Shown here: positions 36,006-41,097 of the stretch, piece by piece | Layout of the letters: the number at the start of each line of letters is the position of its first letter | Numbering within the stretch: the first letter of the stretch is position 1 | Assembly: GCA_028692735.1 (NCBI GenBank) | Contig: JAQUWS010000002.1 | Span: 1 to 64,000, forward strand | Length of the DNA: 64,000 bases | Source of the DNA: Candidatus Altimarinota bacterium | Lineage (GTDB): Bacteria; Patescibacteriota; Gracilibacteria; BD1-5; UBA6164 | Direction of reading: 5' to 3' | Made by a program: the position numbers and the translations under genes | Notes under the pieces: model-generated | What the model saw: only the letters and a program-made list of their open reading frames with translations | What the model was told of the DNA's origin: nothing | Database searches by the model: none

Positions 36006-36902
36006 TTAAAATTCTTTGATATCATTACTATCATCATAAGGATCAAGGTGTATTAATACTTTAGAATTTTCAACAACTTCTCTTATCTTATACTCGATTT
36101 TATCTCAAATATGATGAGCATCATACAAAGATATCTGTTTATCAAAAACAACATGTACATCTATAAAAACATCATCTCAAGATTTTCTTGAATTTAATAA
36201 ATGATATGAAGAAACTCTCTTATCTGTATTTAAAATTATATCTACAACACAATCAAGTATTCACTGGTCAAGTTTTTTATCCATAAGCATCTGAACTCAC
36301 TCAGTTATTATCTCTTTACTAGAAGTAATAATATAAATTCAGATAATTATAGCAACAATACTATCTATAATTATAAATCAAGTAAGCTTTATTAATCAAA
36401 GTGAAAGTATTATTCATATATTTGTAAATAAATCTGTCTGATAATGAAGCATATCAGCTTTGATTGTCAGATTTTTTGTTTTTTTAGCAACTCTTGATAG
36501 ATATGTTACCAATATTCAAGTTAATAAAACAGATACAATCATTACATAAATTGATTCATTTAAGTTATCAATTCCTCCTTTATCTAGTATTTTATTTATA
36601 GCTAAAACAATTAAAGATATTCAAGAACCTCATACTATAACTCATTCAACAACTGCTCAAATTCATTGAATTTTTCATTTTCAGTAGTTATAATTTGCAG
36701 TATTTTTATCATGAGATGTTTTTATAACATATAAATTAAATAATGATACCATAAAATCAAGACAAGAATCAAGAGCCGATGATAATAATGCCAAACTTCA
36801 ACTTATAAGTCATACACTAGTTTTTATTATTACAAGAGTAATTGCAGTTGTATTTGCCATAATTATAGCTCTTTTTATTTGTTTTCAGTTCTTAGTATCC
36901 AT
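36006..36902 (-). CDS. Cation diffusion facilitator (FieF/CzcD-like)
   Basis: A 298-residue protein with six membrane segments and a cytosolic C-terminal domain. TM2 holds the zinc-site pattern SSALDSCLDF and TM5 the H...D pair (ADMLHYQTDLFTN). The C-terminal domain shows VFIDVHVVFDKQISLYDAHH with conserved histidines. It exports zinc, iron or related divalent ions in exchange for protons. It is transcribed toward tRNA-Gln; no metal-responsive regulator is adjacent. Confidence 0.93.
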
Positions 36903-36978
36903 TTTAATTAATAAAAATATAACTTAACAAATCATAAAGATTTTATAAAAAAATCAAATAAATATATTTTAGATTATA

Positions 36979-37006
36979 TTGACAAATATATAAAATAATG
37001 TAATAT
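36979..37006 (+). promoter_or_regulatory. Possible promoter of the 37031 gene
   Basis: TTGACA at 36979-36984 and TAATAT at 37001-37006, spacer 16. By eye only. Confidence 0.4.
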
Positions 37007-37030
37007 ATAAAAATAATTATTTTAAAAAAT

Positions 37031-38242
37031 ATGGCTAACAATAAAACTCAAAAATTAAAATCAGAAGTATGTGAAAATAATGAGGATGTTATTTTTTGAA
37101 AATGAAAAGAAATATTTTTAAGATGATTTTCGATAAGTTTAAATAAATATTTTAAAACACATGAAAATAATGAATTGGTTATAATAGATTATGAGCAAAT
37201 TATACTAAAACTACAAAATAATTTGAAAATTACTGTTAGTGAATTTAAAATCATGGAAAGTATTATTAATGATAAAAAATTTTTTTCTATAGCAAAAAAA
37301 GTGTTTGAGGAAGTTTTAATAGTTTCCTCAAGTATAAAAGATATAAATAACTTTATAGAAAAAATAACTCCAGAAAGTTTAAAAACAGATTTAATAAGAT
37401 ATTTATATGAAAATGTTATTAAATATACTGTTGTAGTTTGTTTAGAATCACAAGAAAAAGAACAAATCTGATTTGAATATGAGAACAATGATATAGAAAT
37501 ATACTTTAAAAATGATAAAATTCCAGTATATACATTAAAAAATAAACAAACTAAAGAAATAAACTATTTTTACAGAATTGATTTAACATATTTAGAAAAA
37601 TATTGATTTATCTTAGCAAGAAATAAAAAATGAAATATTTTACTATCAAAAAATTGAACAATTTTGTCAGAAAATGATTTTGATATAAGTTTTTTAGAAA
37701 AGACTTGATTGGTTATAGTTAAAAAAAATAAAAATGATATTTTGTTGTTTAGAAATTGACTACAAATCAATGATAAAAAAACAACTTACATAGGATATGA
37801 TTTATCCTACTATCAAGAAACTTGATTTATTGTAGCTAAAGAAGTCAACTGAAGAGTTATATTATGATCAGATTGAAAAAAAATAAGTGAAAAATTAAAA
37901 TATTATACACATATAGATTTAAAAAATCTTTCAAAAACTTGATTAATTACTGTTTGAGATAATAAATGAATATATATACTTAATAAAGATTTATCTCTTT
38001 ATTCACAAGAAAATAAATACTATAGATGATTAAATTTAGACTATTTAGATAGTTTATGAGTTATAATTGAAATTACATCAGATTGATTCAATATACTTAC
38101 AAAAGATTTAAAGCACATATTATACAAATGAAATAAACCGCTTATTTATGATGAAAAGAAAAAAGATTTATTTCAAATCTGAATATTTAATAGAAAAAAT
38201 TACCTAAAGATAAGTAAGTTACCAGCAAAGTACTACAAATAA
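37031..38242 (+). CDS. WG-repeat-like protein of unknown function
   Basis: A 403-residue protein. The first 155 residues are helical (including SEFKIMESIINDKKFF). From about residue 170 to 390 there are repeating beta units of about 40 residues of the form hydrophobic-T-G-(L/F)-I-x-V-x(4)-G-x-x-(I/L)-L: EKTGLVIVKKNKNDILL, QETGFIVAKEVNGRVIL, SKTGLITVGDNKGIYIL and DSLGVIIEITSDGFNIL. This resembles WG (KWG)-repeat proteins, which form beta-propeller-like solenoids. No signal peptide; cytoplasmic. The function is unknown. Confidence 0.7.
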
Positions 38243-38245
38243 AAA

Positions 38246-38276
38246 TTGACTAATTATATAAAATATATAATATAAT
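38246..38276 (+). promoter_or_regulatory. Promoter of the leader-peptide attenuator
   Basis: TTGACT at 38246-38251 and TATAAT at 38271-38276 (spacer 19; an alternative TATAAT at 38266). It begins immediately after the stop of the upstream gene and leaves a short leader before the ATG at 38303. Confidence 0.5.
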
Positions 38277-38302
38277 AAAAAATTATAGTTAAAATAATTA
38301 TT

Positions 38303-38371
38303 ATGAAAAATTTTATTTTAAATACACAAAGAAGAAGACCTTTTGAGATTTCTCTTAAGGTAATTGTTTAG
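38303..38371 (+). CDS. 22-residue leader peptide with three consecutive arginines
   Basis: The tiny ORF starts MKNFILNTQRRRPF and ends in TAG at 38369-38371. Three AGA codons in a row lie at 38330-38338. The later part of the ORF (38346-38356, AGATTTCTCTT) is exactly complementary to 38404-38414 in the terminator hairpin downstream. This is the layout of ribosome-mediated attenuation: stalling in the Arg run would leave the antiterminator strand free and let transcription continue into the GNAT gene. That it is translated is inference. Confidence 0.65.
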   Translation: MKNFILNTQRRRPFEISLKVIV

Positions 38372-38396
38372 GTTATTTTTTTCATAATTTAGATAA

Positions 38397-38427
38397 AAAC
38401 TTCAAGAGAAATCTTGAAGTTTTTTTA
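38397..38427 (+). terminator. Attenuator terminator in front of the GNAT gene
   Basis: AAACTTCAAGA pairs with TCTTGAAGTTT around GAAA, with seven T overlapping and following the stem. It lies 19 bases upstream of the GNAT start, between the promoter and the gene, so it must be read through for expression. Confidence 0.85.
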
Positions 38428-38446
38428 TATTTTAATTTTAAATAAT

Positions 38447-39211
38447 ATGAATAAAATTAATGAAAATTTATTTTTAGAAAATCTAAAAATATCAAATTGG
38501 AGTCTAGATGTAAGTAAAAGTATATATGAAATACTTGAAAAGCCTAATTGGGCAGAGTGGTTAGAAGCTAGTATAAATTCTATAGAATGAAGGTCAAAAG
38601 TCTTTCCTGAATGACAATTTCTATTAAGTAATTGAAAAGAAACTTTATGAAGTTTGTCAACAAATCAAATATATTGGGATTGAAATCCAAATACATTGCA
38701 AAGTTGGGATGATATCGCTTGAGATCCAACAACCTATGAAAATACATATAATAAAAATTGAAATACTTTAGTGTTTATGTCAATGAATATAAATAATAAA
38801 TTTTTATGATTAAGGTTAACTGATTACTTAGTTTGAGCAGCAAAAGATTTTGCAAAACTTAATTGAATAAAACATATTATTGGTTCTTTTCGTCCAAGTT
38901 GATATTGAAAATATAAACTAGAAAATTGATATATTAAGTTTGAAGATTATGTAAATTTAAAAAATAATGATTGATTTTCAATAGATCCATGGCTAAGGAG
39001 TTTACAAAAAAAATGAATGAAACAAATAAAAATAGATGATGTTGCTATGAAAGTAGAATTGACAATGGAAGAATTTTTAAAATACAAAAAAACAAATTGG
39101 ATAGAACAAAAACCTTGAATTTGGGAATGTTGAGAAGTTTGAAATTTTGAAGTAAAAAATGATAAAGCAATTTACACTGAAAAAAATGTATGGTGAGAAC
39201 TACCATTATAA
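38447..39211 (+). CDS. GNAT-family N-acetyltransferase-like protein
   Basis: A 254-residue protein. Central segments LGLRLTDYLVGAAKDFAKL, IIGSFRPSGYGKYK, SIDPWLRSLQKKGMKQIKID and AMKVELTMEEFLKYK match, from memory, an uncharacterised group of GNAT proteins found in Actinobacteria and Firmicutes (pattern SFRPS..G.YK, then DPWLR.L...GM). The substrate is unknown. It starts just after the attenuator terminator, and the metallo-hydrolase gene begins 15 bases after its stop, so the two form an attenuated unit. A resistance-type acetylation role would suit leader-peptide control but is inference. Confidence 0.75.
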
Positions 39212-39225
39212 GTTAATATGTATTT

Positions 39226-39912
39226 ATGTTAGAAATAAAACAAATAGAAAAATATATATGGTGAATTAGGGAATCGTATCATTATGAAGATGTATTAAGT
39301 TATCTTATAATATGAGAAGAAAAAGCATTACTTTTTGATACATGAATGTGAATTTATAATATAAAAGAAGCAGTTTATAAAATAACAAATCTTCCAATAA
39401 TTGTTTTAAATTCACATTCACATTTTGATCATATATGATGAAATTCATTGTTTGATGAAATATGGATATACAATAACGAAAAAATAAAAAATATAGCAAA
39501 AAATTGAGTTGATAAATCAATAATTTTAGAAAACTATGTAACTGAAAAATTTATTAAGAAACCAGAGTCTTTTGATTTAAAAAATTTTGAAATAAAATGA
39601 TTTAACTACAAAAAAGTTTTATATGATAACTATGAAATAAATCTAAAACCTTTTAAATTTAAAGTTATACATACTCCATGACATTCTATTGACCATATTT
39701 GTATTTATGAAGAAAACAAAAAGTTTCTTTTTGCATGAGATTTGATATACAAATGACCAATTTTCATAGATAATTATACTCAGTTTATTAATTCAATAAA
39801 AAAAATTAATAAACTAAACCCAAAAAAGATTTTTCCATGACATAATGATTTTTGTATAAGTGAGATTTCTCTAAAACTAAAAAAAGTAAATAACAATTAT
39901 TATTTTTTATAA
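39226..39912 (+). CDS. Metallo-beta-lactamase-fold hydrolase
   Basis: A 228-residue protein with all the fold's metal motifs in order: NSHSHFDHIGG (HxHxDH), IHTPGHSIDH, FAGDLIY and FPGHND. These bind two metal ions. The family includes glyoxalase II-like thioesterases, lactonases and many others; the substrate cannot be inferred. It is the second gene behind the attenuator at 38303-38427 and lies 15 bases after the GNAT gene. An upstream out-of-frame mini ORF (ATG at 39218) overlaps the spacer. Confidence 0.93.
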
Positions 39913-39954
39913 TTTTATATATAATATAATAGATATAAAATTTAATAACAAACT

Positions 39955-41097
39955 ATGATTTGAATACTTTTAAACATGATGTTATCATCATGAATTTCTA
40001 TGAAAAGATGGAATAATTTCCCAAGAATAGAAGATATTAGCCATATAGACAATGTTTGATTTATTTTACATATTGCTTTATTTTTATCTCATTTAGAGGA
40101 AAAAGAATGAAATATAGTAGATAAAGAATTTATAATAAAAAGGATTTTATTTAATTCTACAAAAATTTTGTTTCTATCAGATATCAGTTCTTGAACTAGA
40201 GTTTATATTGAAAAAATAAATAAAGATATTTTTCCAGAACTAGAAGAAAAAGTTTTTAATCATATATTATCATTTAATGCTCCAAAATACATAAAAGAAG
40301 ACATAAAAACTATAATGAATGATGAAACAAAAACTCTAGAATTATCAATCATAAAAGCAGCAAAAAGATATGCTGCTTATAAAGAATGTCTTATAAATAT
40401 GAAAGTATTTGAGCTTACTTATGAGGTTCCACACAATGAGATTATGACATCATTGGAAGAAAAAAGAAAAGAATTAAAAAGTCTTGATAGATTATTAAAA
40501 GATTCTAATTATGAGAAATATCTTTTAAATATAAGAAAATTATCTCATAGTTTTAGATGGAATTCAGAAAAAAGGATATTTCCAATTTCAGTTATGTCTC
40601 ACCTTGTGATAACAGCATTTTTATCATACATCATATGAAGTATAGAAAATGCTAAATGATGAAAGCTTAATATATATGAGATGATGCTAAAAGCAATTTA
40701 TCATGATATCCCTGAGGCTATGACTTGAGATGTAATCACACCAACAAAAAAAGCAATTCCATGATTTTCAGAAGTACTAGAAGAAGTTGAAAAACAGATG
40801 CTAAAAGATTATTTATTTTATTATGTATGAGATGAATACGAAAATTTTGTAAAAGATTATATGCTAAATCCTTGGTCATGAACTGAATGAAAATATGTTA
40901 AATTTGCAGATGTAATCTGTGCTATGTTTGAATCAAAGATAGAAGTAAATTACTGAAGTACAAATTACATAGAGATATATAGATCCTTAAAAAGAAAAGT
41001 TAATACATTTGAATGACCAAGTGTAGAATATATGTTAAAAGAAGTAAGTGATAGTTTTGATGATAAAAATATAAATTTACATTTTAATAACTGATAA
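39955..41097 (+). CDS. YfbR-like HD phosphohydrolase, duplicated
   Basis: A 380-residue protein made of two HD-like halves. The C-terminal half has the YfbR/HD_3 signature: RWNSEKRIFPISVMSHLVIT, KAIYHDIPEAMTGDVITPTK and later KFADVICAMFESK. The N-terminal half starts with the same opening (RWNNFPRIEDISHIDN) but lacks an HD pair, so it is probably a catalytically dead copy. YfbR-type enzymes dephosphorylate deoxynucleoside monophosphates. The next gene starts 2 bases after the stop and is also an HD protein. Confidence 0.88.

Follow-up and report, generated by a model that had tools for sequence, protein, structure and literature searches.

Bacterial arginine biosynthesis is usually discussed through the repressor ArgR. 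The classical enterobacterial attenuators (trp, his, leu, ilv, thr, phe) carry an ORF with a codon run directly 5' of their genes, and the position of the ribosome on this ORF chooses between an antiterminator and an intrinsic terminator. Amino-acid leaders beyond Proteobacteria were described by Naville and Gautheret (2010), in whose main text arginine is absent (PMC2965389). In Salmonella, two consecutive Arg codons in the speF leader orf34 sense arginine; pausing there switches the RNA structure, and low arginine raises expression (PMC6386406). This leader works via Rho, RNase G decay and sequestration of the RBS, and the peptide that it encodes forms a conserved domain (PMC6386406). In B. 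subtilis tlrB (yxjB), an RYR leader acts with tylosin, and a terminator lies before the gene. The drug-dependent stall occurs at the C-terminus of the ORF, and an antiterminator overlapping the terminator was not identified in that paper (PMC6851288).

Here we describe an element at positions 38246-38427 of a 64,000-nt stretch of a Gracilibacteria genome (contig JAQUWS010000002.1, positions 1 to 64,000; "the window"). Judged from its sequence and from folding models, it is very probably a ribosome-mediated transcription attenuator that senses the charging of Arg-tRNA. The evidence from sequence consists of the anatomy of the element, its non-randomness, its conservation, compensatory changes, and the association with arginine genes in relatives. 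A literature search on attenuators of Gracilibacteria or Patescibacteria and on argG leader peptides returned nothing relevant, an absence that does not prove novelty. As far as we found, an Arg leader-peptide attenuator is new in this lineage, although its mechanistic class is known, and the family of near-identical arginine switches to which it belongs appears not to have been described earlier.

Anatomy of the leader region

The genome uses genetic code 25, in which TGA specifies Gly, and the genes near 38.4 kb are open under this code alone; the leader ORF contains no TGA. All features of the element lie on the forward strand. The leader ORF (MKNFILNTQRRRPFEISLKVIV; 38303-38371), defined by its sequence and by alignment with nine related leaders, begins with ATG, has 22 codons, and stops at TAG. 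Codons 10-12 are AGA AGA AGA (38330-38338), an Arg run that is the putative sensor and lies in a sequence, AGAAGAAGAC, that is identical in 5/5 attenuators of the group A alignment described below. After the run, and still within the ORF, comes strand 2 of the antiterminator (38346-38361), assigned from exact complementarity, the fold, and compensatory changes. Its 11-nt core (38346-38356; AGATTTCTCTT) is exactly reverse-complementary to 38404-38414, a segment that is both the core of the terminator and strand 3 of the antiterminator; in the predicted fold, the pairing of strand 2 with the terminator extends to 38332-38361 with 38399-38426. The intrinsic terminator (38395-38427) has a 13-bp stem (38395-38424), a GAAA loop, and a T-rich tail, with a stability of -13.9 kcal/mol. 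Early in the nascent RNA, strand 1 is predicted to pair with strand 2 in a leader hairpin (38338-38361), the minimum free energy structure of transcripts ending at 38376-38403.

The initial annotation, made by reading the DNA alone, thus located the 22-codon ORF with its three AGA codons and the exactly complementary 11-base strands correctly, and the terminator that it placed before the structural genes is confirmed, with 13 pairs and a T-rich tail. It fared less well with the promoter. The site TTGACT-16-TAATAT (38246-38273) is plausible by position, but its match is weak (9/12) and no better than chance: 31 such sites were found where 31.1 are expected.

Comparison with chance

The fold of 38270-38430 has a z-score of -4.4, and none of 200 dinucleotide shuffles was as stable. 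Because shuffling the whole window destroyed the terminators, the null model kept them fixed. With this terminator held, a perfect 11-nt complement arose upstream in 15 of 5000 shuffles (0.3%), and a duplex of equal stability in 0 of 2000. There are 14 terminator calls on the two strands of the window, several of them being the two strands of one hairpin; this one has an 11-nt strand that lies within an ORF and closely follows three identical residues in a row, a combination that none of the other 13 shows. When all 14 were shuffled, 1000 replicates of the set yielded an 11-nt complement alone in 24 cases and one combined with an in-ORF codon run in none. The tripeptide RRR is itself absent from the 19,025 aa of the window's larger proteins. 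Rfam, searched at gathering and relaxed thresholds, has no family at the element, and neither a T-box nor another riboswitch was found in 38200-38460 up to E = 1. A near-identical terminator hairpin is present elsewhere in the genome (L009 4320-4358, G000:C49), where it follows the gene of an ABC-F ATPase near the end of a contig and has no leader. The idea that the terminator belongs to a repeat family was rejected, as the genome has two copies only.

Predicted switching

The ribosome footprint was masked at each A-site codon and the probability of the terminator stem computed, in a model of equilibrium rather than kinetics. With codon 11 (the second Arg) in the A site, this probability does not exceed 0.01 at any footprint edge between +11 and +16, and the antiterminator wins. 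With codon 9, 10, 12, or 13 in the A site the outcome is mixed and depends on the edge; at codon 12 (the third Arg), the footprint chosen sets it anywhere from 0.00 to 0.86. From codon 14 through the stop codon, the terminator has a probability of 0.92-0.96. The predicted structure therefore flips at the Arg codons, and the terminator is favored soon after the run. Such folding supports what had been proposed from the letters, namely that a ribosome completing the ORF would lead to termination, and one stalled at the Arg codons would leave strand 2 free. In ribosome-free RNA of the window, the antiterminator is predicted to be the preferred state, so that basal termination depends on translation of the leader or on the early 1:2 hairpin; in the model, hairpin 38338-38361 would serve as a protector.

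By the same scans, the relatives G002 and G014 are predicted to switch sharply at the Arg run, G027 and a second site in this genome (C77, see below) partially, and G003 weakly; in equilibrium scans of the G011, G004, and G015 leaders, the switch was not reproduced. The sharpest predicted switches are those of the window, G002, and G014.

In the mechanism that we propose, RNA polymerase would transcribe the leader with a ribosome following behind. When charged Arg-tRNA is ample, the ribosome would clear the AGA codons and cover strand 2; the terminator would then form, and transcription would stop near 38427. With Arg-tRNA in short supply, the ribosome would stall at AGA codons 10-12, leaving strand 2 free to pair with the core of the terminator. 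Formation of this antiterminator would allow polymerase to read through into the GNAT-like and metallo-hydrolase genes. We infer arginine starvation as the signal at this locus, and likewise the efficiency of termination and the role of both genes.

Arginine leaders in related genomes

In G004, G014, and G015, argG is present and is preceded in each case by an Arg-run leader (MTNLFTTSLRRRPFSKGKWLLLLCK, MLNNISIIRRRRLVRNSH, and MQNLQFIRNRRTFSDKKMVSFGVCKIF, respectively). The operons behind these leaders are argG-argF-argH in G004 and argG-argH in G014 and G015, argF and argH being named from N-terminal sequences without a family search. In the genome of the window, which is 92% complete, argG was not found. 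Other attenuators in this genome were sought by pattern and family searches, and a search of the family for AGAAGAAGACY added sites in G003, G002, G011, G027, G019, and the genome itself. This last site (G000:C77) is a second Arg-run attenuator of the same genome, before a gene for N-acetylglutamate synthase. The proteins after the G003 and G027 leaders match acetylglutamate kinase/N-acetylglutamate synthase models, and those after the C77 and G002 leaders are shorter versions that can be aligned with them, the C77 protein being without most of the kinase domain. We read the gene after the G011 leader as an N-acetylglutamate synthase too, from its sequence and without a model search. In G019 (L117 1005, contig C206), an RRRPF leader lies about 320 nt 5' of a PLP-enzyme-like gene, with other hairpins in between.

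The sister species G002 has a leader (MKNIFTQLINRRRLYEISHEVVV) and a terminator (ATTTAGATAAAAACTTCAAGAGAAATTTCTTGAAG) closely similar to those of the window. Across the window leader and nine related leaders (those of the relatives and C77), RR is invariant, and most have the full RRR run. In group A (window, G002, G014, G011, G027), TAGATAAAAACTT is invariant along with the sequence of the Arg run. Compensatory double changes are seen at 3 of the 11 antiterminator pairs and 85% of cells are paired, in a small sample of five sequences for which 12 of 500 shuffles score as high; slid registers of the alignment give at most 56% paired and no double changes. Conservation in relatives, which the first reading of the locus had named as a check, extends to the RRR leader, the antiterminator with its compensatory changes, and the terminator, albeit in a small sample.

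Across the class, 11 of 35 argG loci (L048-L080, L081, L082; mostly code-11 lineages) have RRR encoded in a short upstream ATG ORF (up to 40 codons), compared with 0.42 expected from shuffles. This count scores the ORF and RRR; a strict terminator scan was too insensitive at these loci to be informative. Other amino-acid runs upstream of the same 35 loci number 0-2 each. The argG of G093 apparently has two tandem Arg-rich leaders, and no RRR leader was seen for that of G124 within the stretch covered. As a sequence query, the leader peptide found no significant match besides itself, and the pattern QRRRPFEI had two matches in GTDB contigs, about the number expected by chance.

Leaders for other amino acids

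The leuA gene of this genome is preceded by MTNKTNLLLLALLLLGNKPKSYFDVN, a strand, and a terminator, laid out as in the Arg element, and an Ile/Leu/Val leader (M..KFNLILVIVVLLGK..) lies before another gene of the same genome. Both kinds recur in sister species. Leu-run leaders before leuA or leuA-like genes, and the Ile/Leu/Val leader before other genes, are located at L012 (G000:C18), L021 (G004), L020/L035/L039/L042 (G003), and L017 (G027); G027 carries a tandem pair of Leu leaders, and G003 has an Ile-run leader as well. Rfam gave zero matches among the Leu, Ile/Leu/Val, and Ile leaders. In the equilibrium model the leuA leader switches in G004 only and not in G000, which indicates that the model can overlook real candidates.

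Two RNA elements of other kinds were seen. A SAM riboswitch aptamer, scoring slightly under the gathering threshold, precedes metK (L011 2319-2421, G000:C30). On the minus strand of G008 (L014 ~1280-1360), a T-box-core-like sequence, GGGTGGAACCGTCC, is followed by a terminator and adjoins a leuA-like locus.

A possible frameshift in N-acetylglutamate synthase

After the Arg attenuators of four genomes there is a TTA CCC AGA site: L003 1709-1726 (G000:C77), L116 1344-1361 (G003), L089 1614-1634 (G002), and L094 1616-1636 (G027). Frame 0 of these genes runs from ATG to TTA CCC AGA, encoding M(K/E)..LPR, and reaches a stop codon at once in two genes and later in two. In all four genes, the reading frame of N-acetylglutamate synthase is the open +1 frame, which lacks its own ATG, GTG, TTG, or CTG start codon. 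The four genomes share one and the same nonamer, TTACCCAGA; CCC is rare, accounting for 5 of 361 Pro codons in the window's genes. By their sequences, the four genes appear to require a +1 frameshift at CCC-AGA. In the simplest reading, tRNA-Pro would slip +1, from CCC to CCA, while AGA awaits Arg-tRNA, and the site would be a possible second, hungry-codon sensor of arginine. The Ty1 site CUU-AGG is a comparable +1 frameshift site. The GNAT-like gene of the window does not have this arrangement.

It is conceivable, at somewhat less than even odds, that one regulon in code-25 Gracilibacteria reads Arg-tRNA charging twice: through the RRR attenuators of argG(FH), of N-acetylglutamate synthase, and of the GNAT-like/hydrolase pair, and through the CCC-AGA +1 frameshift in N-acetylglutamate synthase. 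If so, the GNAT-like/hydrolase pair would have an undescribed function in arginine supply.

The downstream genes and the insertion

The first gene behind the terminator (38447-39211, forward strand, code 25) encodes a GNAT-like acyltransferase of 254 aa with weak similarity to the GNAT domain of CurA; the second (39226-39912, forward strand, code 25) encodes a metallo-beta-lactamase-fold (MBL) hydrolase of 228 aa (Pfam PF00753, E = 4.3e-26). Of the GNAT/metallo-hydrolase pair named in the initial annotation, the hydrolase is therefore upheld by Pfam, but "GNAT" corresponds to one weak PDB match, CurA, at E = 9e-4. The GNAT-like protein has no match in Pfam or NCBIfam and no relatives in 353 genomes of the class, among viral contigs, or in GTDB contigs; no relatives of the MBL gene were found in 40 class genomes. 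A plasmid tblastn with the GNAT-like protein gave just matches of ~22-28% identity, and the two contexts viewed were uninformative. A single-sequence AlphaFold model of this protein (pLDDT 34) was unusable. Its assignment as an N-acetylglutamate synthase was rejected, the similarity being not beyond chance. Neither gene has a known link to arginine, and this counts against the attenuator reading. The GNAT-like gene contains 19 TGA codons, which suggests that it probably resided in a code-25 lineage.

In G003, the counterpart of the cation transporter gene at 36006-36902 directly adjoins that of the YfbR-like gene at 39955. Thus, 36903-39954 is an insertion in this strain; it comprises the attenuator and the genes for a repeat protein, the GNAT-like protein, and the MBL hydrolase. 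The repeat protein (37031-38242, 403 aa) consists in part of repeated K(Y/T)GFILARNKKG-like units. The gene pair, brought in with the strain-specific insertion, is predicted to be a member of the organism's arginine-starvation regulon.

A genuine Arg attenuator captured in this way could be non-functional or constitutive here if much of the arginine pathway is gone from this strain. The missing argG, the truncated C77 synthase, and the antitermination favored by free RNA are in line with such a loss of function; however, the element keeps its leader ORF, its RRR, the spacing of its strands, and its stem intact, and the predicted switch is, with those of G002 and G014, the sharpest. We regard a captured, inactive attenuator as unlikely.

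Nature of the signal

Arginine starvation and a ribosome-targeting inhibitor had both been put forward as the signal. If an antibiotic were sensed, RRR would be a +X(+) macrolide-stall motif and the GNAT/hydrolase pair would form a resistance operon, after the pattern of B. subtilis tlrB. RRR does fit R/K-X-R/K, the motif of tlrB with its transcription attenuation (PMC6851288), and an acyltransferase and an MBL hydrolase could act as drug modifiers. However, the homologous leaders precede argG, argF, argH, and N-acetylglutamate synthase, resistance genes were not encountered downstream in the family, and elsewhere in the genus the same architecture is built around Leu and Ile/Leu/Val runs. Stalled by a macrolide, the ribosome would have the third Arg codon in its A site, a position for which the model gives an ambiguous state (0.00 to 0.86, according to the footprint chosen). 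Because of the arginine-gene homologues and the Leu and Ile/Leu/Val leaders that share this design, the antibiotic reading is very improbable; starvation, the half of the earlier proposal that the relatives' arginine biosynthesis genes favor, is retained, and the signal is most likely uncharged Arg-tRNA. Least probable of all, and scarcely credible, is that an ordinary 3' terminator of the 37031-38242 gene lies beside an accidental leader and complementarity, with the GNAT-like gene having its own promoter past it: the leaderless copy after the ABC-F gene at C49 and promoters inseparable from chance would allow this, but the terminator lies 153 nt past the upstream stop codon and 19 nt before the GNAT-like start codon, and the entire leader-antiterminator-terminator unit recurs before the relatives' arginine genes with compensatory changes.

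Relation to known systems

Read as an attenuator that senses Arg-tRNA charging, the element would extend classical attenuation to alternative-code Patescibacteria and to arginine. It would also tie an orphan gene pair to arginine starvation, as predicted here. The Arg leader, a structural RNA family without a match in Rfam, can now be searched for. In an uncultivated lineage with reduced genomes, leaders of this sort are one of the few direct indications of the nutrient that a cell is monitoring.

Within the genus, the Leu and Ile/Leu/Val leaders are alike in having an amino-acid-run ORF, an ORF-internal strand set against the terminator, and a terminator shortly 5' of the gene; they differ in the amino acids, the RNA sequence (CCTAAGAG/CTCTTAGG), and the targets, leuA and others. 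With tlrB the element shares the combination of an Arg-X-Arg leader peptide and a terminator 5' of the gene; however, tlrB has no arginine regulon, and the window has an antiterminator that overlaps the terminator. The likeness to speF orf34 lies in consecutive Arg codons of a leader ORF that serve as an arginine sensor, whereas the element in the window has an intrinsic terminator, and the targets in its relatives are arginine biosynthesis genes. Shared with the classical enterobacterial attenuators is the overall design, with their codon-run ORF, their choice of structure by ribosome position, and their place directly 5' of the genes. Unlike those attenuators, the element of the window would sense arginine, belongs to code-25 Patescibacteria, has no Rfam match, and carries strand 2 inside the leader ORF itself.
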